Source of the DNA: Lachnospiraceae bacterium
GTDB taxonomy: Bacteria > Bacillota > Clostridia > Lachnospirales > Lachnospiraceae
DNA: 64,000 bases
Direction of reading: 5' to 3'
Assembly: GCA_017431515.1 (NCBI GenBank)
Contig: JAFRKV010000038.1
Coordinates: 1 to 64,000 of the forward strand
A model generated the notes under the pieces. It was not told where the DNA came from, searched no databases, and saw only the letters and a list, made by a program, of their open reading frames with translations. Below, piece after piece: positions 9,654 through 20,665 of this stretch (positions within the stretch are counted from its first letter, which is position 1; each line of letters opens with the position of its first letter). The position numbers and the translations under genes were made by a program.

Positions 9654-10721
9654 TTACTGGGCGAGATCCAGCTGCTGCAGCGTGCCCATGCCGCCGTTCT
9701 CATACAGGAAGATCCCGGTGGAACGGATCCTTGCATTCGGCTCGTTGTCGGCCAGCCGGTTCAGGGAAAACTCGCTTTGGCAGTTTCCTAAGTAGATCGC
9801 GCCGATCCCGGCAGCGCCGAGTCCGATCAGCTTGTCATTGCCGTTTTTGTCCTTTGACCAGATCATGAGGTCTTTGAAAACATCGTCGGCTTCGTCGATC
9901 CAGCCGTTTTTGTCCTTGTCGTAAAGTGCCAGATCCTTGAACCCGTTTCCGCTTTTGGTTCCGAACAGTTCTGCGCCGTTATTGATCTTTCCGTCGCCGT
10001 TCTTGTCCAGCGCCAGGAATCCGGAGCCCGGACCGAGGCGGCTGATCACTTCCTCATGACCGTCCGCGTCGAGGTCGAAATAAAACTTCTGGTCGCAGAC
10101 ATCCGCGGCATCGCAGTCCATGTTGATCACAAGCGGATCTGTAAACAGGCCGCCTCCGAAGGAAAAGCTTTGACTGTAGACTTCGGTAAAGGAGCGTGAC
10201 ATGGATAACTCCAGTCCAAAACTGATTTCACGTCCGTCCGAGGTTTTGACGGTTCCTGCGGTTTCAAATGTCACAGCTTCTTCTTCGTGGTAGCAGTATG
10301 ACTCCGAAAAGCTGCCGGAGAATCCGCCGGAAAAACCTTCTGACATGCCTTGCGATGAAGTGAGATCCGTCAGTTCAAACCGCCTGCCGAATAACAATTG
10401 CCAGATATAGTCCATGCTGAAATAGCGGATTCTGCGCCGGGATTCGTTTTCCCCGCTGTTCCTGCTTCCGCTGCTACGATTGGATTTGCCCACATTCAGA
10501 CGCTCGATCAGATCTTCCAGAGAGTTGGAAAACTGTTTTCCCTCCTTCTCACTCTCTTTTTCCTGTGAGGAGTCCGGAAGCGTGGAGATGAGACCCGAGC
10601 CGTTTTTGTCCCCGATCCCGTACACGCTGCTCTTCCTTCCCGTAAAGGAGATCACATGGCTCTCTGACTGGGCATAACTTCGCTTGCTGCTCATTCCTAC
10701 ATCAGAAGATTGAATGATCAA
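9654..10721 (-). CDS. EF-hand-like calcium-loop protein of unknown role
   Basis: A 355-residue protein from a TTG start at 10721, chosen because AAGGAGG lies 8 nt upstream; a longer in-frame TTG at 10790 has no ribosome site. The N-terminal third is Ser/Gly/Lys-rich and low complexity. The middle contains a repeated Ser/Phe/Gly stretch. The C-terminal 130 residues carry four calcium-loop motifs: DLDADGHEE, LDKNGDGKIN, YDKDKNGWID and SKDKNGND, with GAELFG between them, as in VCBS/haemolysin-type calcium proteins. No signal peptide, lipobox or anchor is seen, so export would need a non-classical route. Homologous C-terminal modules occur in uncharacterised proteins; the function is unknown. Confidence 0.7.
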   Translation of the reverse strand: MIIQSSDVGMSSKRSYAQSESHVISFTGRKSSVYGIGDKNGSGLISTLPDSSQEKESEKEGKQFSNSLEDLIERLNVGKSNRSSGSRNSGENESRRRIRYFSMDYIWQLLFGRRFELTDLTSSQGMSEGFSGGFSGSFSESYCYHEEEAVTFETAGTVKTSDGREISFGLELSMSRSFTEVYSQSFSFGGGLFTDPLVINMDCDAADVCDQKFYFDLDADGHEEVISRLGPGSGFLALDKNGDGKINNGAELFGTKSGNGFKDLALYDKDKNGWIDEADDVFKDLMIWSKDKNGNDKLIGLGAAGIGAIYLGNCQSEFSLNRLADNEPNARIRSTGIFLYENGGMGTLQQLDLAQ

Positions 10722-10866
10722 TGAGAATTCCTCCTTTGTGATGAGCAGGTTTTCCGTATTCTGTTGAAATAGCTTCCCTGCAGATTCCAAAGAAAAAGAC
10801 GCATTCTTTTAAGAACATCCGTTTCTTAAAAAAATCCGTCCCTGGCACCTGCTGTCTTTTTGGTCT

Positions 10867-10944: not shown

Positions 10945-12282
10945 TTAAGGAATTAACGGTGATTTTTCAGATGGGGCGCTTTCCGGGATCGTCACTGTCA
11001 CTGTGGTTCCGCTCCCTTCCTGCGATGAGATGGCCAGGCATCCGCCGCACATGATCATCAGTCTCTGCCGGATATTTTTCAAGGCGATCCCCGGGTCGCT
11101 GTCATCGGCGGGGGTAAAACCGCGGCCGTCGTCTGTCACGATGATCTCGCTGCCGGAATCGGTTTTTTGCGTCCGGATGGAAATGTGAAACGAACCGGCA
11201 TAAGGATCCATGCCATGCTTGACGGCGTTTTCCACAATGGGCTGAAGCGTCAGAGGGGGCAGGCGGAAATGGGTAAAGGCCGTATCGTATTCCACGAAAA
11301 GCATATCTTCATACTGTACCTGCTCCACGGCGAGATAAGCGCGGGTATGTTCCAATTCCGCGGAAAAGGGAATGGGACTGTCGCTGGCAACAGCATGAAA
11401 GTTTTTGCGCAGATAGTTGGTGAAATCCATGGTCACCTGTCTGGCCTTTTGAGGATCCAGATTGCAAAGGCTGTAGATGCTCATCAGGGTATTATAGATG
11501 AAATGAGGCCGCATCTGCAGCACCATGACGCTGGCCCGCTCATGGGCGATCTCCTGCTGCTGCCTTGCGATTTCCTGCTGCTGTCTGGCAATCTCCTGCT
11601 GGTGTCGTCGATCTTGGTCAATCTGGTCGGACAGGATGAGACCGTACATGGACAATGCGGAGAGGACATAACTGATGTCGATGAGGGGAAACACATCGGC
11701 GAACAGTTGTACGAACAATGCCACCGTCATCGGCAGAATCGCAATGAGGAAGCTGAAAAAGACTTTACGTGAGAGCTCTTTTCGATGCCGCACCAGGCCC
11801 GCCAGGGTGAGCAGCTGGATGGCGATGAGCGGCAGCAGCAAAAGCGGGTAAAGGGTTCCGCGATAATACTGGTTATCCTGCGCCTCATAGGAGAAAAGGC
11901 CGAGGAAAGGGGCAACGACCAGCAGAAAACAATAGACCGCCCACAGGATCAGCACGGTGCGAAAGAGCTTGCTTGAGAAAATGGTTTTTCCGCTGCAATG
12001 CAGCAGATAAACCGTCACCATGGGCAGCGGTATGGAAAGGAGCAGGGATTCCAGAATCGACATGAAATAGACTGCTTCGCGTGGACCGTGAGAAAAGGGC
12101 AGGATCCATTCGATAAGGACGCAGACGCAGCACAGGATAAAGGACAAAAAGTAGCCTCGGAAAAAGCGCCTGCTCCAGCGGCTGATCAGAGGAATGATGG
12201 AGGAAAACCAAAGCCCCAGCACGCTTAACAGAAGCGCCGCAGTGACAACGGAAAAGTAGAAGAACTCCGACCATATGCTCAT
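10945..12282 (-). CDS. LytS/YehU-type sensor histidine kinase
   Basis: A 445-residue membrane histidine kinase of the His_kinase/LytS class. The first ~215 residues hold six or seven hydrophobic segments with short loops, so the sensed signal is probably in or near the membrane. A Gln-rich repeat (QQEIARQQQEIA) forms a short coiled coil before the phospho-acceptor box, where MRPHFIYNTLMSI carries the His. The ATPase domain has NAVKHG and DDGRGF. It starts in an ATGA overlap with the response regulator gene, which is transcribed first, so the two are an obligate pair. LytS-type kinases usually pair with LytTR regulators; this one does not. Confidence 0.88.
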   Translation of the reverse strand: MSIWSEFFYFSVVTAALLLSVLGLWFSSIIPLISRWSRRFFRGYFLSFILCCVCVLIEWILPFSHGPREAVYFMSILESLLLSIPLPMVTVYLLHCSGKTIFSSKLFRTVLILWAVYCFLLVVAPFLGLFSYEAQDNQYYRGTLYPLLLLPLIAIQLLTLAGLVRHRKELSRKVFFSFLIAILPMTVALFVQLFADVFPLIDISYVLSALSMYGLILSDQIDQDRRHQQEIARQQQEIARQQQEIAHERASVMVLQMRPHFIYNTLMSIYSLCNLDPQKARQVTMDFTNYLRKNFHAVASDSPIPFSAELEHTRAYLAVEQVQYEDMLFVEYDTAFTHFRLPPLTLQPIVENAVKHGMDPYAGSFHISIRTQKTDSGSEIIVTDDGRGFTPADDSDPGIALKNIRQRLMIMCGGCLAISSQEGSGTTVTVTIPESAPSEKSPLIP

Positions 12283-12878
12283 TCTGCCATACCTCCCGGC
12301 AAAAACGGATACCGCAGCTTATGAAGCTGTGCCCGAACACCCTCCGGTGTCAACGGTTTGACCAGAAAGCCACAGGCATCGGTGTCCCATGCATCAAGGG
12401 AATAGTCCGGATAAGCAGTCAGATAAATCACATTGGTGCGGGGATTGATCTCCAGCAGCGTGTGACACAGTTCAAGTCCGCTGGCGTTCCCCAGTTCGAT
12501 ATCCAGAATGGCCAGAGCGACCGGGTTTGCCCTTGCGTATGCGATCGCTTCCTTTGGCCAGATAAAGCCCGTGATCGTGGCATTCGGCACGACCTCTTCC
12601 AGAACGGACAGGTTGTCGGAGAGGATGACCTTGCTGTCGTCCACCATGATAATGTTGGGAGATTCTTCGCTTTCGGCCGCGGCATAGAGCAGCGTGTTTG
12701 CATCCACCCCAAGACAGTCGGCAAGGCGGGAAATCATGGCGACATCCGGCAGACGGCTGCCGTTTTCCCAGCGGGCGACCGTGGAATGGTTGACAAACAT
12801 TTGCGTGCCGAGCTGCTTCTGCGAAAGGCCTTTTTCCTCTCTCAGCTTACGCAGCGTCTCCGCGAATACAAAACTCAC
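12279..12878 (-). CDS. XRE-type HTH fused to a C-terminal receiver domain
   Basis: A 199-residue response regulator with reversed architecture. Residues about 5-65 are an XRE/Cro helix-turn-helix (LRKLREEKGLSQKQLG, then NHSTVARWENG). Residues about 75-195 are a receiver domain: VDD acidic pocket, LAILDIELGNASG with the phospho-acceptor Asp, YLTAY and the FLVKPL Lys. The usual order is receiver first. The start is GTG 12878, preceded by a GGGGGGATTGAG ribosome site; the frame stays open upstream but without a better start. It is cotranscribed with the LytS-type kinase (4-bp overlap). It probably binds the inverted repeat at 12936-12958 and controls itself and possibly the divergent kinase operon (inference). 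Confidence 0.85.
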   Translation of the reverse strand: MSFVFAETLRKLREEKGLSQKQLGTQMFVNHSTVARWENGSRLPDVAMISRLADCLGVDANTLLYAAAESEESPNIIMVDDSKVILSDNLSVLEEVVPNATITGFIWPKEAIAYARANPVALAILDIELGNASGLELCHTLLEINPRTNVIYLTAYPDYSLDAWDTDACGFLVKPLTPEGVRAQLHKLRYPFLPGGMAE

Positions 12879-12935
12879 CTCAATCCCCCCTTCCCCTTTC
12901 CAGAATGGTTCACCCATATGGTAATCCAACGCGGT

Positions 12936-12958
12936 GTCACAAGCAAGGAGATTGTGAC
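12936..12958. promoter_or_regulatory. Inverted repeat operator in a divergent regulatory region
   Basis: GTCACAA (12936-12942), a 9-bp spacer, then TTGTGAC (12952-12958): a perfect 7-bp dyad, extendable outward by one wobble and one more pair. It lies between the XRE-receiver gene (minus) and the hybrid kinase operon (plus). Its symmetry and position suit a dimeric XRE regulator. Confidence 0.55.
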
Positions 12959-12986
12959 GCCGGAGGTTTGACATTCTGGAAACCCG

Positions 12987-13015
12987 TTGAAGCAGGTGAT
13001 AATCTGTTATATACT
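12987..13015 (+). promoter_or_regulatory. Promoter of the hybrid-kinase operon
   Basis: TTGAAG (12987-12992) and TATACT (13010-13015) are separated by 17 bp. The predicted start is near 13022, giving a leader of about 22 nt before the ATG at 13045. The inverted repeat at 12936-12958 lies about 30 bp upstream of the -35. Confidence 0.65.
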
Positions 13016-13044
13016 TGATTATTATGACGCTATGGGGGAAAACC

Positions 13045-15108
13045 ATGGAAAATGACGCTTTGAAGCAAGGAATCAAAGAGAAATTTACGGTATTGCTTAC
13101 ATCACTGGTTGCCGTCGCATTGCTCATTGAAAATCTGATCATGGGATGGGAAGTCTGGGCCCCTGCCGTGCTCGTCATCATGATCGTCCTGTTGTGGGTG
13201 GTGCATTTCTCCAAGAAATTAGATCCTGACTGGAAAGCATTTTTCTGTTTTCTCATAGCGTTTCTGATCGTTTTCTATCACGGCGTTCACGAGACAAGCC
13301 TGTTTGATCTTGCGTTGGTCGCCGCCTTTGCCATGATCGCGTATGCTTCTTTTGACCGGAAATATATGATGCACCTGTTTCTGGTGGAGTATTTTTTTCT
13401 GATGGCATGGCATCTTTTCAACATCCCGGGATGGGACGGGATTGAGTATACTGCGCTGAATATATCCAAAATCCTGCTGCACGCGGGGATCGTTGTGTTC
13501 GTCTATATCATTAATTTCAGGGCAATCGGCGAAAGACTGGAGAACGCGGAAGAGAACAGTCGGAAGAACCGCCGGATCGAGGAAAATGATGCCGACATGG
13601 AGGATTTTCTTTCCAATATCTCCCATGAACTTCGGACGCCGATCAATGTGGTGAACGGGATGTCGGATCTTCTGATCAAGAGAAACATCGGATACGAAGC
13701 CGAATCCATTAAGAACGCCGGAATCAGACTGGCCTGCCAGATCGAAGACATTCAGGATTATACCGAATGCAAAAGAGGCAAGGTCATTCTGGAAGAAGAA
13801 GACTACATGAGCACCTCTTTGATCAATGACGTGGTGGTGGGTTTTCGCATGCATGAGCGGCAGGATCTTGAGCTTGTTGTGGATCTGGATCCGAGAGTCC
13901 CGGCAAAGATGAACGGGGATATCAAGAAGCTTCATAAGATTTTCAGGCATCTGCTGGAAAATGCAGTGAAGTTTACCAGGAGTGGCGGCGTTCTTGTCAG
14001 AATGTACACGGAACAGATGGAAAACGGGATCAATCTGTGCATAGAAATGACGGATACCGGCATCGGCATGGACAGGAAGGCTTTGGGATCCGTTGCCGGC
14101 GGTATGTACCAGGCCAATAAAAAGCGCAACCGCAGTTCGGGAGGCATTGGACTGGGGCTGTTTATTGTGTACGGATTTACCCACAGCATGGGCGGCTTTG
14201 TCAAGATAGAGAGCGAGAAAGGAAACGGGACCACGGTCAGGATCACGATGCCGACGAAGGTGGTCGATCCGTCACCCTGCCTGAAACTCTCCAGGGAATT
14301 ATCCGGCGCGCTTCTCCTCCATGTCAGATCTGATAAATACAAGGTTTCCAAGATCCGTGATTTTTACCGGACGATGGCGGGGAACCTTGCGGCAGGCATC
14401 CAGGTGCAGCTGTATTCGGCGGAAACCGTCTATGATGTGGAACGCATGAAGGAAAAAACAGAGGTAGGCTTTATCTTTATGGGACAGGAGGAGTACGAGG
14501 AAAACAAAGGGTACTTTGATGCTGCCTGCGAGGAAGGGATCGTGATCGTGGTATTGGCGGATCCCGGATTCAAGCCGAGTTCCGGAAGCCGCGTCCTCGT
14601 CCTGCCGAAACCCCTGTATTCCTATCCTGTGATCAAGGTGCTGAATGAAGGCGTGAATGCCGGGGATTTGTGCATTGGAGATGATCAGGCAAAACCGACC
14701 TTTGAAAATGTGCGCGCGCTGATCGTCGATGATGAACCGATGAATCTGGTGGTTGCTTCGGGGATCTTCAAGGATTACGGAATGTTGATCGATACGGCGG
14801 GGAGCGGTCGTGAGGCGATTTCCAAGTTCCGCGAGAACGAATATGATGTGGTGTTTATGGATCATATGATGCCGGAAATGGACGGCGTGGAGGCGATGAA
14901 GCAGATCAGAGGGATTGCGGATGATTTGGGGCGGAATGCCATCGTCGTGGCACTGACCGCCAACGTTGTTTCCGGGGCAAAAGAGATGTTTATCAGAGAA
15001 GGGTTCGACGGATTTATCGCCAAACCGATCAACACGGCAGATTTTGAAAGAGTGATGATAAGAGAACTCCCTGAAAAAAAGAGAAGCAAAGGGGGTGACG
15101 GGAGATGA
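13045..15108 (+). CDS. Membrane hybrid sensor histidine kinase
   Basis: A 687-residue hybrid kinase. Residues about 15-165 contain five to six membrane segments with almost no extracellular domain. HisKA follows with SNISHELRTP (phospho-acceptor His194), then HATPase_c with ENAVKF (~303), DTGIGMD (~337) and GGIGLGLF (~367). A region of ~150 residues after the ATPase domain (~405-550) has receiver-like alternating strands but no acidic pocket, suggesting a pseudo-receiver. A canonical C-terminal receiver ends the protein, with DDEP and the acceptor Asp606 in MDHMMPEMDG. The start is ATG 13045, preceded by GGGGG; TTG 13015 is in frame but has no ribosome site. The gene overlaps the next kinase by 4 bp. 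Confidence 0.88.
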   Translation: MENDALKQGIKEKFTVLLTSLVAVALLIENLIMGWEVWAPAVLVIMIVLLWVVHFSKKLDPDWKAFFCFLIAFLIVFYHGVHETSLFDLALVAAFAMIAYASFDRKYMMHLFLVEYFFLMAWHLFNIPGWDGIEYTALNISKILLHAGIVVFVYIINFRAIGERLENAEENSRKNRRIEENDADMEDFLSNISHELRTPINVVNGMSDLLIKRNIGYEAESIKNAGIRLACQIEDIQDYTECKRGKVILEEEDYMSTSLINDVVVGFRMHERQDLELVVDLDPRVPAKMNGDIKKLHKIFRHLLENAVKFTRSGGVLVRMYTEQMENGINLCIEMTDTGIGMDRKALGSVAGGMYQANKKRNRSSGGIGLGLFIVYGFTHSMGGFVKIESEKGNGTTVRITMPTKVVDPSPCLKLSRELSGALLLHVRSDKYKVSKIRDFYRTMAGNLAAGIQVQLYSAETVYDVERMKEKTEVGFIFMGQEEYEENKGYFDAACEEGIVIVVLADPGFKPSSGSRVLVLPKPLYSYPVIKVLNEGVNAGDLCIGDDQAKPTFENVRALIVDDEPMNLVVASGIFKDYGMLIDTAGSGREAISKFRENEYDVVFMDHMMPEMDGVEAMKQIRGIADDLGRNAIVVALTANVVSGAKEMFIREGFDGFIAKPINTADFERVMIRELPEKKRSKGGDGR

Positions 15109-18100
15109 GCGTCAAGAAACTGTATCAGGACTTCAAAAATGCCGTTATGGATCCCGAAAGAGAACTCAAGGAACGCCTGTTTTTATGCTTTACCGTTGCG
15201 GTGGAACTGACAGCGCTGATTGCTCTGATCGGGGACATCGTAGTCTATGAGAACCGGATTGAGATCGCTGTTCTTTTGGTTACGCTGCTTGTGATTCCCG
15301 TCGTCACAGCGACCTGCCTTTATAAAAACAAACTGAAAGTAGCCATCATTCTGTTCGCCATCGGACTGGTCTTTGTCATCCTTCCGGCTGTCTATTTCTT
15401 CGGAGGGGGGTATACGGGGGGCGGATTGCTTTGGGTGATTTTTGCCTATCTGTATGCCGGACTACTGCTAACAGGCGCGTTTCGCATCGTGATCTTCATC
15501 CTCCTGGCAGCGATCACCATCGTCTGTCACTGCATCGATTACTACCTCCCGGAGATCATCATGCCTCATGCAAAGCAGGTGTTTTTTGTGGACAGCACCA
15601 TTTCGATCATCCTGATCGGCAGCATTGTTTTTGTGATGACCTGGATCCAGGGAAGGCTCTTTGATAATGAAAGCAGGAGGGCCAGAAAAGAGGCGGAAAG
15701 GGCAGAGGAACTGACAAGATCCCAGAACAGGTTCTTCTCCAGCATGAGTCATGAGATCAGGACGCCCATCAATTCGATCCTGGGCCTCAACGAACTGATT
15801 TTAAGGGATGTGGAGGCATCCGATGAGATCGTCAATCAGGCCTCGGGAATTCAGGGGGCTGGCAAGATGCTTCTTGCGCTGATCAATGACATCCTTGATT
15901 TTTCCAAGATGGAAGCAGGGAGCATGGACATCGTGCCGGTGGATTACAACGTAGGTGACACGCTTTCCGATATCGTGAATATGATCTGGCTGAAGGCGAA
16001 TGAAAAGGGCCTGAAGCTGGATGTGAGCGTGGATCCGGATGTGCCAACCGTCCTTTACGGGGATGAGGTCAGGATCAAGCAGGTGATCGTCAACCTCCTG
16101 AACAACGCCGTCAAGTATACGCAGGAAGGCACAGTGGGACTTCGCATTGATGTGGATGAGAGAGGGGAGGATTATGCCATCCTCCGCATTACGGTCACGG
16201 ATACGGGAATGGGGATAAAAAAGGAAGCGCTTCCGCATCTGTTTGACGCGTTTAAACGGGTGGATCAGGAAAAGAACAGATTCATCGAAGGAACGGGGCT
16301 TGGGCTTTCCATCGTCAAACAGATCGTGGAGCTCATGGGAGGCACCGTTACGGTGAACAGCGTATACGGGGAAGGTTCCGCGTTTACGGTGATCGTGAAG
16401 CAGGGGATTTCCGATGCCACCGCCGTTGGCGAACTGAATATCCATAGCCAGCATACGGCCCGGATCAGTGCGTACGAAGCAAGCTTCACCGCTCCGGAAG
16501 CAGCGATTCTGATTGTGGATGACAATGAGATGAACCTGGAAGTGGAGAGCAAGCTTCTGGCGGAAACCGCCATGGTCATAGACAAGGCGTTAAGCGGAAA
16601 AGAAGCGTTGGAGTTGACATTGAAGCACCAGTATGATGTGATACTGATGGATCATCTGATGCCGGAAATGGACGGCATCGAATGCCTGGAGAGGATCCGG
16701 TCGCAGTCCGGCGGTCTTAACAGGACCACTCCGGTTGTGGTGCTTACGGCCAACGCGGGAAGCGAAAACAGGGAGCTTTATAACCGGTCCGGATTTGACG
16801 GTTATGCGGTAAAACCGGTGTCGGGAGCCGTGCTGGAAGAAACCCTCATGAGGTTCATTTCTTCCGAGAAGCTTATCATGAACAACGATGCGCTGGGTGT
16901 GCGGGAGGATATCAACGCCGCCGCGGGATATGCCGGCAGGATGCCGATTCTCATCACCTCCACCAGCATGTGCGATCTGCCGGAGCAGATTACAAGGAAT
17001 CTGAATATCGCGATTCTGCCGTTTGTGATCAAGACCGAAGAGGGGGTCTTCAAAGACAGCGTGCAGATCGAAGCTTCGGAATTGATCCGTTATATGAAGG
17101 AGGGCCAGTATGCGGCATCCGATGTGCCGGATGAAGCAGCCTATGCGGAATTTTTCGCGGCGAACTTAAAACGGGCCCATCATCTGATCCACATTGCGAT
17201 CACCACCAGCATGAGCAAGGATTTTATCAATGCATCCGAAGCGGCCAAATCCTTCGAAAACGTCACGGTTATTAATTCTGAATGTGTGTCAAGCGCCACC
17301 GGATTGCTGGTATTAATTGCCCATAAGCTGACGCAGCTCGGCCTATCGGCGGATGAGGTCGTATCGGAACTGAATGAAGTGAAGAAACGGTTGAAATGCA
17401 GTTTTGTCGTTGAAAGCACGGATTTCATGCTGAAGCACGGGCTGGTAAGCCGCAGAGTCAACGCCATTGCCAATGCGCTGGATATGCATCCGTGCATTTC
17501 GGTGAAGGATGATAAAAAAGGGATCGGCGGAGTCTGGTTCGGATCTCTGAAGAGTGCATACAAGAAATACATCAACAAGGCGCTGCCTGTGGATGTGGTG
17601 CCGGATTCCGAGGTGGTGTTTATCACCTATACGGATGTTCCGCATGAGACGCTGGAATTCATCAAGGAGCAAATGAGCAAACGGGCCTATTTTGAACGCG
17701 TTGTATTCATGCAGGCCTCTGCCGCGATCTCTTCCAACGTCGGATCCGGCTCCTTTGGGATCCTGTATTTTGTGAAGAGCAATAAATCCTATAACATCGG
17801 TTCCTATTTCGGCGATGAGAATGACAATGACGCCGACAATGAGAAAGAAGCGGAAACCGGGGGCTCGGAAGATTCTCTGGACGCTGTGGATCAGGGCATG
17901 GAGAGCCAGGACGCTGCAGGCCGGGATGGGCCAGATCAAAATGCCAGTCATCGGAATACGGCCGCGGAGGCGGAGAATCCGGAGTGGTACCGGCAGATCG
18001 ATGCCATAGATCCGGATGTGGCGTTAAAAAACAGCGGGTCTGAGGAAGCATTTCAGACCGTGCTGAAAATTTTCCACGAATCCGTTCCGGACAAGACCTC

Positions 18101-18566
18101 CGAGATCGAGGACTTTTATGCAAAAGAGGACTGGACAAATTATACGATCAAGGTGCATGCTTTAAAGAGTTCCGCAAGGCTGATCGGTGCCAATGGGATC
18201 GCGGACGAGGCACAGCTTCTGGAAAATGCCGGGAAAGAAGGAAACCTTGCGTATATCGCCGATCACCATGCGGCGCTGATGCAGAAATATCACGAATTGG
18301 ACCGGGCGATTGCACCTGTTTTTGAAGAGAAGGATGCCGGGGAGGAAGACCAAAGACCTCTTGCGGATGCATTTCTCCTGCAAAGCGTTTACGAGGGGTT
18401 GATAACTGCAGCAGAGGCCATGAGCAGTGACGATATCGAGGAGATCCTGGGAGAACTGAAGGATTACAGATTTTCGGAAGACGACGGTGCAAAACTTGAC
18501 GAGATCAGGAGGAAGTCGGAGAATTTTGACTATGACGGAATCCTGCAGCTTCTAAAAGACGGATGA
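15105..18566 (+). CDS. Hybrid histidine kinase with internal DegV and Hpt domains
   Basis: A 1153-residue phosphorelay protein. Order of domains: membrane region with about six segments (~25-190); HisKA with SSMSHEIRTP (His216); HATPase_c; receiver with MDHLMPEMDG (Asp516); a DegV-family domain (~613-893); an acidic linker (~895-940); and an Hpt domain with HALKSSARLIGA (His1018). The DegV assignment rests on the ordered family landmarks: TSTSMCDLPEQI near its start, ITTSMSKDFINA, a Ser/Gly-rich SSATGLLVLIA, DFMLKHGLVSRR, YTDVPHETLEFI and the terminal GSGSFGILYF. DegV (FakB-like) proteins bind fatty acids, so this module may sense a lipid or acyl group and gate the relay (inference). ATGA start overlap with the preceding kinase. 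Confidence 0.85.
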   Translation: MSVKKLYQDFKNAVMDPERELKERLFLCFTVAVELTALIALIGDIVVYENRIEIAVLLVTLLVIPVVTATCLYKNKLKVAIILFAIGLVFVILPAVYFFGGGYTGGGLLWVIFAYLYAGLLLTGAFRIVIFILLAAITIVCHCIDYYLPEIIMPHAKQVFFVDSTISIILIGSIVFVMTWIQGRLFDNESRRARKEAERAEELTRSQNRFFSSMSHEIRTPINSILGLNELILRDVEASDEIVNQASGIQGAGKMLLALINDILDFSKMEAGSMDIVPVDYNVGDTLSDIVNMIWLKANEKGLKLDVSVDPDVPTVLYGDEVRIKQVIVNLLNNAVKYTQEGTVGLRIDVDERGEDYAILRITVTDTGMGIKKEALPHLFDAFKRVDQEKNRFIEGTGLGLSIVKQIVELMGGTVTVNSVYGEGSAFTVIVKQGISDATAVGELNIHSQHTARISAYEASFTAPEAAILIVDDNEMNLEVESKLLAETAMVIDKALSGKEALELTLKHQYDVILMDHLMPEMDGIECLERIRSQSGGLNRTTPVVVLTANAGSENRELYNRSGFDGYAVKPVSGAVLEETLMRFISSEKLIMNNDALGVREDINAAAGYAGRMPILITSTSMCDLPEQITRNLNIAILPFVIKTEEGVFKDSVQIEASELIRYMKEGQYAASDVPDEAAYAEFFAANLKRAHHLIHIAITTSMSKDFINASEAAKSFENVTVINSECVSSATGLLVLIAHKLTQLGLSADEVVSELNEVKKRLKCSFVVESTDFMLKHGLVSRRVNAIANALDMHPCISVKDDKKGIGGVWFGSLKSAYKKYINKALPVDVVPDSEVVFITYTDVPHETLEFIKEQMSKRAYFERVVFMQASAAISSNVGSGSFGILYFVKSNKSYNIGSYFGDENDNDADNEKEAETGGSEDSLDAVDQGMESQDAAGRDGPDQNASHRNTAAEAENPEWYRQIDAIDPDVALKNSGSEEAFQTVLKIFHESVPDKTSEIEDFYAKEDWTNYTIKVHALKSSARLIGANGIADEAQLLENAGKEGNLAYIADHHAALMQKYHELDRAIAPVFEEKDAGEEDQRPLADAFLLQSVYEGLITAAEAMSSDDIEEILGELKDYRFSEDDGAKLDEIRRKSENFDYDGILQLLKDG

Positions 18567-18883: not shown

Positions 18884-19852
18884 ATGCTGATTACTTTGGA
18901 AGAAACCATCAAACTCATTCAGGACGGCAAGGTGTTACACATTGCCGCGGATCGTTCGCTGCTTTCCAAACTGCCGGCGGGGAACTGGATTGGGGGAACC
19001 ACGCCGTATTTTATCGGAGAGGATGGCGGCGTGCTGACAAAAGAGAGGCTCTTCGTGACGGAACTTGATTTCGCGGAGGAGATCAGGATCGCCTCCTACG
19101 GAAAATACAGTGTATTTCAGATTGTGGAGGATTGTTATGAAAACGGCCTGACGATCCTGATCATGCCGTTCGGTTCCAAGGTAGTGGAAAAATACGCAAA
19201 GGAGGCGCCCGATGTGGAAGAACTCCTGATGCATCCCACCGTCGGATGGATCGCGGGAGCGGAACTCGGTTCGGAGGATGAGATCAGGGTCTTTGACGGC
19301 ACCAGCGGAGAATCCTATCGCGACCGGGCCGTGGTGATGTATGTCAAACTTCCGGCCAATAAAACCGCCCTTGTGAATCTGATCAACATTTTCGAAGATG
19401 ATAAGACGGATCCTGTGATCCTGTTTCCGGATAATGAACTGCGGGTCACAAAATGCAAGGTGAACGGGCAGGAGGTTGACTTTGCGGAGTACATCAAGAG
19501 AAAGAACATTGACACGAGGATGCCGCTGGTCACGGATTATAACGGTTCCTATATCAATACATCCATCAAAGGGGCGGACGATACCGGGATCGACCTTTAT
19601 GCGCCGGTCTTCAAGAATGTGGAATACAGATTTGCACGTCCTGTCACGGACTATGTGCAGGAGTTCGCGGAAAGGATCCGTGAGTCGGGAGCGGATGCAC
19701 CTGTACTGTCGTTCAATTGCATTTTAAATTATCTGTACGGCGGACTGGAAGGAAAGAAGCTCGACCGTTACACAGGACCGATCACCTTCGGTGAGGTGGC
19801 ATATCAGTTGATCAATCAGACGCTGGTGTATTTTGAGATCTCGGAGTCTTAA
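18884..19852 (+). CDS. DUF6976-like protein
   Basis: A 322-residue soluble protein resembling a family I associate with DUF6976, whose N terminus has the pattern LITLEETIKLIQDGKVLHIA followed by AGNWIGGTTPYF. The C-terminal half, with LSFNCILNYLYG, recalls the C-terminal part of FIST sensory proteins. That is a weak resemblance only. No catalytic motif is visible. A good ribosome site (AGAAGGAGGG) precedes the ATG. It lies between a small unknown protein and a two-receiver regulator in a kinase operon, suggesting a signal-input or scaffold role (inference). Confidence 0.65.
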   Translation: MLITLEETIKLIQDGKVLHIAADRSLLSKLPAGNWIGGTTPYFIGEDGGVLTKERLFVTELDFAEEIRIASYGKYSVFQIVEDCYENGLTILIMPFGSKVVEKYAKEAPDVEELLMHPTVGWIAGAELGSEDEIRVFDGTSGESYRDRAVVMYVKLPANKTALVNLINIFEDDKTDPVILFPDNELRVTKCKVNGQEVDFAEYIKRKNIDTRMPLVTDYNGSYINTSIKGADDTGIDLYAPVFKNVEYRFARPVTDYVQEFAERIRESGADAPVLSFNCILNYLYGGLEGKKLDRYTGPITFGEVAYQLINQTLVYFEISES

Positions 19853-19879
19853 CCGTATTTTCCAGGAGGGATATTGGAG

Positions 19880-20665
19880 ATGAATACACTGAATTTACAG
19901 AAATCGATAGGGATTCTTCTTTATCAGACAAGCGTGATTGTAAAAGGAATTGAGAAGAACCTCATGGATGCAGGCTACCGGGTTGCGACAATGACAGGTG
20001 ATTTTCACAGCCTGGAGGATCTTACGAAAACCATTGACGAATTCATCGTCTATCTTCCGGGAGATATCTCCGGCGATAAATCGAAACTGGATACGCTGGG
20101 CAAGATCACGGAGACGGTCAGGGAAAGCGGCAAGGGATTGATTATGATCGGGGAGAAGAATGATCATGCCGATATTTTGCGCGCGGTTCCGGAGGTCAGA
20201 GACTGTCTGTGGCTGGATCGCCCTGTGGACATCAACACCCTGAAAGAGATCCTTGCGAAGGAACTGGAAGGGAATACGGATCCCGGCGAAAAGAAGAGGA
20301 TTCTGATCGTGGACGATGACCCGTCGTATGCCAGAATGGTCAAAGAATGGATCAAGGACTCCTATAAAGTCGATATTGTGACCGCGGGAATGCAGGCCAT
20401 TACGTTTCTGTTAAAGGTTCCGGAAGATGAAAAAGTGAATCTGATCCTGCTGGATTATGAAATGCCGGTGGTGGACGGACCGCAGGTGTTCCAGATGCTG
20501 CGCCAGGAGAGCGCCACAGTGGATATCCCGGTAATCTTCCTTACGGGAGTCGGCACCCGGGAAGGCGTGTCCAGAGTTCTGGAATTAAAGCCTGACGGGT
20601 ATCTCCTGAAGTCCACCTCCAGAGAGGATATTCTCGCATATCTTAAGAAAACGCTGGAGAAATAA
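19880..20665 (+). CDS. Two-receiver response regulator without output domain
   Basis: A 261-residue protein with two receiver-type folds. The first (~8-125) lacks a clear acidic pocket and is probably a pseudo-receiver. The second (~138-258) is canonical: VDDD, LILLDYEMPVVDG with the phospho-acceptor Asp, FLTGV and the conserved Lys in YLLKST. No DNA-binding or enzymatic domain follows, so it should act by protein contacts or as a phosphate sink, and is a natural acceptor for the upstream Hpt domain. The ATG at 19880 lies 9 nt after AGGAGGG; the in-frame TTG 19874 is too close. It is the last gene of the operon and converges with the patatin gene 4 bp away. Confidence 0.85.
   Translation: MNTLNLQKSIGILLYQTSVIVKGIEKNLMDAGYRVATMTGDFHSLEDLTKTIDEFIVYLPGDISGDKSKLDTLGKITETVRESGKGLIMIGEKNDHADILRAVPEVRDCLWLDRPVDINTLKEILAKELEGNTDPGEKKRILIVDDDPSYARMVKEWIKDSYKVDIVTAGMQAITFLLKVPEDEKVNLILLDYEMPVVDGPQVFQMLRQESATVDIPVIFLTGVGTREGVSRVLELKPDGYLLKSTSREDILAYLKKTLEK

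Follow-up and report, generated by a model that had tools for sequence, protein, structure and literature searches.

Introduction

The FakB/DegV proteins (PF02645, TIGR00762) bind fatty acids for phosphorylation by FakA. In published work, Thr62, Ser95, Ser171 and His270 of Staphylococcus aureus FakB1 (SaFakB1) form a network around the fatty-acid carboxylate, Arg173 is essential for the kinase reaction, Arg205 binds FakA and the membrane, and both arginines are completely conserved in FakB (PMC8892158, PMC9136124); the tunnel of FakB is formed by three insertions that are missing in FakA_C (PMC9136124). Here we describe a protein in which a domain of this type is built into a hybrid histidine kinase. 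This DegV-kinase is encoded on a stretch of 64,000 nucleotides (hereafter the window; positions 1 to 64,000 of contig JAFRKV010000038.1, forward strand) from a Lachnospiraceae bacterium (assembly GCA_017431515.1).

To our knowledge, few bacterial kinases are known to sense fatty acids inside the cell. RpfC of the Xanthomonas diffusible signal factor system carries a receiver (REC) and a histidine phosphotransfer (Hpt) domain, while RpfG is a REC-HD-GYP protein. Judged by description, RpfC would be the nearest functional parallel to the DegV-kinase, in that it is a fatty-acid-binding kinase and that REC-GGDEF or REC-HD genes lie beside some DegV-kinase pairs. It differs in that a FakB-like domain in the cytosol, in most cases C-terminal to the receiver, is the candidate sensor here, and in that two kinases come with one Hpt; the region with which RpfC binds DSF comprises 22 N-terminal residues (PMC5391125).

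Two further groups of proteins resemble the DegV-kinase in part. Hybrid kinases of the TorS/BarA/ArcB type share the core order HisKA-HATPase-REC(-Hpt), and their families were among the best NCBIfam matches, all below cut-offs; unlike them, the DegV-kinase has an extra DegV domain and a tandem partner kinase. The DAK2-DegV fusions of Clostridia likewise contain a cis-fused DegV domain in which Arg205 was not found, but they keep Arg173, form a separate clade, and their other half is Dak2-like by eye. Searches of open-licence PMC papers listed none about a DegV-histidine kinase fusion, which does not prove that none has been published; among the papers listed, one was examined internally for the fusion (PMC3146951). 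The CREST paper was considered as an earlier report and set aside, its available part noting degV beside hemolysin III genes only (PMC3146951). The DegV-kinase is real and recurrent, was not found in the papers searched, and represents a variant form of hybrid kinase.

Results

A complete DegV domain within a hybrid histidine kinase

A preliminary description of the window, made from the letters alone, had placed HisKA, ATPase, receiver, full DegV and Hpt domains in one protein. This order was borne out by Pfam and NCBIfam (Table 1), with His216, Asp516 and His1018 at the positions it gave, so that all elements of a hybrid histidine kinase with an Hpt are present. The DegV domain, which had been put at residues 613-893, was located by its profile at residues 615-889. 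This match is full-length and exceeds the curated cut-offs of both PF02645 (126.9 bits, cut-off 27) and TIGR00762 (133.2 bits, cut-off 99.7), which makes the domain a member of the DegV family. In a phmmer search against PDB chains, the best match was 2dt8 (E 1.7e-18), followed by 1pzx, 4x9x and chains named FakB, and the PDB matches displayed were DegV/FakB-type chains; 4x9x is presumably S. aureus FakB2. A chance match to DegV was rejected in view of the E-value (1.2e-36) and of the recurrence of the fusion in 118 loci. The membrane region (residues 20-196) gave no Pfam family above cut-off; an FFGGG-like motif is seen there in the alignment of many relatives.

The fusion recurs in Lachnospiraceae

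DegV domains had been called normally stand-alone. This is true in general, but the fusion recurs, with three more copies in the source genome and a fused protein in 118 of 122 loci examined. The source genome (2.35 Mb, 62 contigs, 81.8% complete) encodes six DegV domains. Two of them lie in short frames (292-295 aa) and four in long ones (906-1155 aa), and all four long-frame proteins are kinases. Because the genome also has a 564-aa frame for a Dak2 protein as large as FakA, it may possess an ordinary Fak system alongside the DegV-kinase.

Among 20 relatives and the source genome, DegV frames of the same size were found in all three of the other members of its genus and in two additional genera of the family. 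At least 45 of 299 family genomes (one per genus) had a match (E <=1e-74) that lay in a frame of 700 aa or longer; the query was an alignment of 19 fused domains with at most seven candidates scored per genome, so that this count is a lower bound. The DegV open reading frame (ORF) carried a kinase match in every one of the 25 of these genomes that were inspected. In a class sample of 291 genomes (E <=1e-60), such frames occurred in four genomes of the same family and in two of one other Clostridia family; 33 of 58 genomes of this second family have such a frame, two of them inspected (L128, L129). A phylum sample of 299 genomes yielded just three, all of the own family, and a class-level search around genome G366 found nothing new. 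From the named genomes, 80 loci were retrieved (80 of 102 confirmed relatives), of which 77 are titled Lachnospiraceae or Butyrivibrio, many of them from the rumen and some from isolates; since the query was a 7-row alignment, these loci are biased toward the clade of the window. Records carrying the fusion include Butyrivibrio sp. MC2021, NC2007, VCD2006, XPD2002 and XPD2006. The fusion is thus found mostly in Lachnospiraceae, plus another Clostridia family. With regard to a plasmid or phage origin, a single plasmid record matched at 30.0% identity, as did 10 records of phages, at 28.4-31.8% among the five listed.

Tandem kinase pairs carry a single Hpt

The 122 loci came from the own genome, relatives, the 80 named records, 20 hand-picked results of the family and class scans, and the window. 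Those lacking a fused protein contain an ordinary DegV (L010, L011), a Dak2 gene (L027), or a DegV-Hpt ORF truncated where the locus begins (L102). Five of the 118 fused proteins are places fetched twice, which leaves 113 with distinct DegV sequences. Read with profiles built on our own alignment, 87 of the 118 proteins have the string TM-HK-REC-DegV-Hpt (TM, transmembrane region; HK, histidine kinase) and 25 have TM-HK-REC-DegV with no Hpt match, the remainder being HK-REC-DegV (3), HK-REC-DegV-Hpt (1), REC-DegV-Hpt (1) and DegV-TM-HK-REC (1). The last of these (L131:5431-8304, +) has its DegV domain at the N-terminus, in an ORF that runs off the contig; upstream of it, an ORF of 123 aa has an Hpt match.

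In 111 of 113 loci an HK and/or REC ORF is located immediately 5' of the DegV-kinase on the same strand, and the other two are at a contig edge. The distance between the two ORFs was -4 in 79 loci (range -80 to +71); in the window, likewise, the stop of the partner kinase overlaps the ATG of the DegV-kinase by 4 bases, and the Pfam scan of this partner gave no Hpt match. Exactly one Hpt was present in 99 of 101 complete pairs: it was on the DegV-kinase alone in 75 and on the partner alone in 24, while none had it on both and two had it on neither. In these two pairs (L015, L051) the next downstream ORF has an Hpt match. Of ten cut or split pairs, seven had the Hpt on the DegV-kinase only and one on the partner only, and none was found in the other two (L106, L131). 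The placement of DegV between receiver and Hpt, as first described, is therefore not constant, given the 25 of 118 proteins without an Hpt match and the 24 pairs with the Hpt on the partner. The usual arrangement is REC followed by DegV, together with a tandem partner kinase.

Ten later loci, chosen for odd frames and additional to the 122, included further kinase pairs (L148, L153, L155, L156), a DegV-kinase whose membrane part is encoded in another ORF (L152), two ordinary DegVs (L149, L150) and a DAK2-DegV fusion (L151). Exceptions to the usual arrangement are L131, an HK-DegV protein with no REC match (L154), and a kinase-clade DegV with an ORF of its own (302 aa) that follows an HK-REC-Hpt ORF (L157:3676-4584, -), probably the product of fission. 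At L149:8461-11343 (+) an ordinary DegV gene stands directly before a REC and an HK ORF, so that DegV is associated with two-component genes in a second way. L063:469-2772 (+), upstream of a kinase pair, encodes a HisKA-REC-Hpt protein in which an HATPase was not detected by Pfam at E 0.01; its relative L033:14-2809 does have one. The L063 protein would be a kinase that lacks its ATPase and is perhaps phosphorylated in trans.

The fused domains form one clade

A quick IQ-TREE analysis of 85 DegV domains (L131 omitted; four long end branches and many open forks) placed all 47 kinase-clade representatives, 46 fused plus L157, on one side of a branch with a Shimodaira-Hasegawa-like approximate likelihood ratio (SH-aLRT) of 100. 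The fused DegV domains thus form one clade, and the eight DAK2-DegV fusions form a separate clade (99) beside 4x9x. Within the kinase clade, a nested clade (99) of 21 representatives includes the window and carries the Hpt in all but L106, and none of the other 26 representatives has an Hpt on the DegV ORF. Since the Hpt-bearers form one nested clade, the Hpt on the DegV-kinase looks derived. Simple transfer of an Hpt from the partner was considered and rejected: 90 of 90 DegV-kinase Hpts, some from duplicate loci, matched the Hpt of other kinases in these loci better than the partner Hpt, and the same 90/90 was obtained when Hpt pieces and short ORFs were left out (median best score 108 bits, versus 80 for the partner Hpt).

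The FakA-related arginines are mostly lost and the head-pocket hydroxyl positions mostly kept

SaFakB1 positions were mapped to 4x9x by motif and spacing, in an alignment of five PDB sequences, 23 stand-alone domains (20 hand-picked plus 3) and 112 fused domains (the 113 less L131). The Ser171 site was left unused, as it is Gly in all five references. In the window, the sites of Thr62 and Ser95 hold the conservative Ser672 and Thr700, the His270 site holds Asn878, and the sites of Arg173 and Arg205 hold Leu780 and Phe812, so that the arginines of a functional FakB are missing. Because these two residues serve catalysis and FakA docking, phosphorylation of the fused domain by FakA, which the preliminary description had invoked for DegV/FakB proteins, is unlikely.

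The same pattern was seen across the set. Arg173 is kept in 5/5 PDB sequences and 23/23 stand-alone domains and in 10/112 fused domains, and Arg205 in 5/5, 22/23 (one Lys) and 1/112, with L, M, F, I or V at the Arg205 site in 96/112 fused domains. His270 is present in 5/5 PDB sequences, 20/23 stand-alone domains (three Tyr) and 1/112 fused domains; 109/112 fused domains have Asn there. Ser or Thr occupies the Thr62 site in 105/112 and the Ser95 site in 96/112 fused domains. Column conservation was ranked in 47 kinase-clade representatives (284 columns) and in 30 stand-alone and PDB rows (273 columns): from the latter to the former, the Arg173 column falls from rank 1 to rank 239 and the Arg205 column from rank 7 to rank 265, and the Asn column has rank 26 of 284 in the fused set. 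G880, in the same loop as Asn878, is conserved in 112/112 fused domains; F683, F684, D834 and S872 are close to invariant among the fused domains but not among the stand-alone ones. The three tunnel segments, anchored at the FakB insertions, are of about normal length.

Seven further clade members have Arg173 in three, Arg205 in none and Asn at the His270 site in six. L131 has Lys, Phe and Asn at the Arg173, Arg205 and His270 sites and Gly at the Ser95 site. Of the ordinary DegVs, L149 keeps both arginines and the His, and L150 has His at the Arg205 site.

DAK2-DegV fusions of about 600 aa were encountered in 7 of 245 class genomes (L158-L164) and at L151:7117-8901. These eight proteins retain Arg173 (8/8) and lack Arg205 (0/8; six replaced, two gapped), and have Ser (3), Asn (2) or a gap (3) at the His270 site. 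Such a pattern would be expected if docking in cis were unneeded and catalysis, here a putative activity, were still needed. Arg205 loss as proof of uncoupling from FakA is weakened by these fusions, and because they have lost Arg205 too, Arg173 is the stronger argument for uncoupling.

Gene neighbourhood

Neighbouring genes were compared by clustering 684 ORFs, up to four on each side, to which 112 of 113 loci contributed, many of them truncated where the contig or the locus stops; the Pfam assignments are those of a single representative of each cluster, for DUF6976 the window's own protein. A response-regulator cluster, like window 19874-20665, neighbours 58 loci. REC-GGDEF and REC-HD clusters neighbour 33 and 12 loci, respectively, and two HK-REC-Hpt clusters 20 and 11 loci, one representative of which had a PDC sensor match below cut-off. 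By motif count, a GGDEF or HD-GYP neighbour occurs in 34/84 loci with and 9/29 loci without an Hpt, and a strict HD-GYP motif in the neighbours of four loci. The DUF6976 cluster is near the DegV-kinase in 29/113 loci, 230-317 bp downstream in the 25 loci in which it follows directly. The Na+:alanine symporter (Na_Ala_symp) genes considered below are exemplified by L008:10755-12293. A Ser/Gly-rich protein with aspartate-rich EF-hand-like stretches (window 9654-10790, -; ORF list) was also noted.

Table 1. Features of the DegV-kinase and its neighbours in the window
Feature	Position	Strand	Residues	Basis and remarks
DegV-containing hybrid histidine kinase	15105..18566	+	1153 aa	single frame, no internal stops
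N-terminal membrane region, several hydrophobic stretches	15162..15692	+	20-196	hydropathy scan
HisKA	15723..15920	+	207-272	Pfam E 2.4e-16; phospho-acceptor His216
HATPase_c	16059..16400	+	319-432	Pfam E 3.3e-28
Receiver (Response_reg)	16506..16844	+	468-580	Pfam E 3.4e-22; Asp516
DegV/FakB-like domain	16947..17771	+	615-889	Pfam E 1.2e-36; profile positions 2-278/280
Hpt	18060..18299	+	986-1065	Pfam E 1.8e-07; His1018
Partner hybrid kinase, TM-HisKA-HATPase-REC	13015..15108	+	697 aa	ORF list, Pfam; start approximate
DUF6976 protein	18884..19852	+		Pfam
Response regulator, C-terminal REC	19874..20665	+		Pfam; N-terminal part without Pfam match
Divergent helix-turn-helix (HTH)-REC regulator	12279..13256	-		ORF list, Pfam; true start probably further in
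Membrane His_kinase (PF06580) with HATPase, beside HTH-REC gene	10945..12282	-		ORF list, Pfam

Discussion

The domain order, the single clade of fused domains, the tandem pair with one Hpt, the loss of FakA-related residues and the nearly fixed Asn are established at the level of sequence. From these we infer a ligand and its identity, the direction of its effect, a physical complex of the kinases and an output. Since the pocket is partly kept while the FakA contacts are mostly gone, the data suggest a lipid shuttle that was converted to a sensor. A ligand-sensing phosphorelay appears to be the best reading of the DegV-kinase, and acyl-chain sensing, though unproven, the best reading of its DegV domain. 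Of the lipid-sensing relay first proposed, the complete DegV domain in a conserved hybrid-kinase family and the largely kept pocket hydroxyls have stood, and FakA phosphorylation and a constant REC-DegV-Hpt placement have not.

We hold with moderate confidence that a FakB-like ligand domain, uncoupled from FakA, serves as a cytosolic, acyl-chain-sensing input of a two-kinase phosphorelay. The DegV-kinase would be one half of this relay, encoded by the tandem gene pair. Its DegV domain would descend from a FakB-type fatty-acid-binding protein, having retained most of the ligand head pocket and lost both FakA-related arginines, and would now be the cytosolic ligand-binding part of the kinase, the ligand most likely being an acyl chain. 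Binding may alter the autophosphorylation of the pair or the passage of phosphate from the receivers to the single common Hpt, from where phosphate would move on to separately encoded receiver proteins, some with cyclic di-GMP (c-di-GMP) enzyme domains. The fuller proposal, that lipid occupancy steers phosphate through a heteromeric one-Hpt kinase pair and is read out into c-di-GMP and gene control, is tentative, and we regard it as possible rather than probable.

Several observations weigh against acyl-chain sensing or the generality of the pattern. The commonest neighbour is the Na+:alanine symporter (60/113 loci, 59 of them downstream), which points to amino acids, and no lipid genes were recognised among the identified neighbour clusters, most small clusters being unassigned; this lack of a recognised lipid neighbour counts against a simple fatty-acid reading. 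The replacement of His by Asn may indicate a different ligand, or the absence of one. The two hydroxyl columns (Thr62 and Ser95 sites) rank just 68 and 97 of 284, and the Ser95 site is Ala in 15/112 fused domains and 13/47 representatives. Arg173 survives in 10/112 fused domains and in 3/7 further members, and the 112 aligned domains are dominated by the clade of the window. Finally, the distribution of the Hpt on the tree fits about one switch rather than many independent ones.

A ligand-free DegV domain, acting as a structural or docking module that links the kinases to each other or a kinase to its receivers, is an unlikely alternative. A new protein interface would fit the hydrophobic residues at the Arg205 site in 96/112 domains and the near fixation of F683, F684, D834 and S872 in the fused set only. 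Against it stand the pocket hydroxyls, which are mostly kept (105/112 and 96/112), the tunnel-forming segments, which are about normal in length, and the change from His to Asn in 109/112 domains, which is specific and unlike drift, with G880 in 112/112.

Also unlikely, in our estimate, is a sensor whose pocket was retuned from free fatty acids to a different hydrophobic or amide/ester ligand, or to an acyl metabolite that derives from amino acids and is linked to the symporter. The Asn in 109/112 domains is consistent with such retuning, as is the symporter gene, which lies downstream in 59 loci and, in the 35 loci where it adjoins the DegV-kinase, is separated from it by 0-85 bp; the tunnel segments and Ser/Thr positions are nevertheless FakB-like. 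Moreover, Asn alone need not exclude fatty acids, because DAK2-DegV fusions that keep Arg173 also have Ser (3) or Asn (2) at this site.

We consider it improbable that the domain is a tethered FakB that presents fatty acid to FakA and whose occupancy reports lipid flux. The genome does encode a Dak2 protein of FakA size, and Arg173 survives in the minority of domains given above, but the window lacks both Arg173 and Arg205, described as needed for catalysis and FakA binding (PMC8892158, PMC9136124), most relatives lack Arg173, and Arg205 is absent in all but 1/112. An assembly or annotation artefact joining a stand-alone degV to a kinase gene, conceivable for an assembly in 62 contigs at 81.8% completeness, has a negligible chance of being correct and is refuted by recurrence: the source genome alone has four copies, and 118/122 loci, named Butyrivibrio records among them, yielded 118 fused proteins.

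A well-studied lipid-binding fold appears in a sizeable kinase family, where the DegV domain has changed as one would expect of a shuttle that turned into a sensor. Because this fold has a solved pocket and known catalytic residues, the sensor question can be put to the test with the soluble domain alone, some 300 residues long, and the naturally occurring tandem pairs with a single Hpt would show how two hybrid kinases use one relay. Linoleic and linolenic acid prolong the lag phase of Butyrivibrio fibrisolvens (PMC2836310). A sensor of the kind proposed could bear on how rumen bacteria meet these acids, a link suggested for such bacteria in general rather than for B. fibrisolvens itself. If acyl-chain sensing is true, free fatty acids, which restrain the growth of Butyrivibrio, would be read directly by rumen Lachnospiraceae and the signal passed on to c-di-GMP and gene control.

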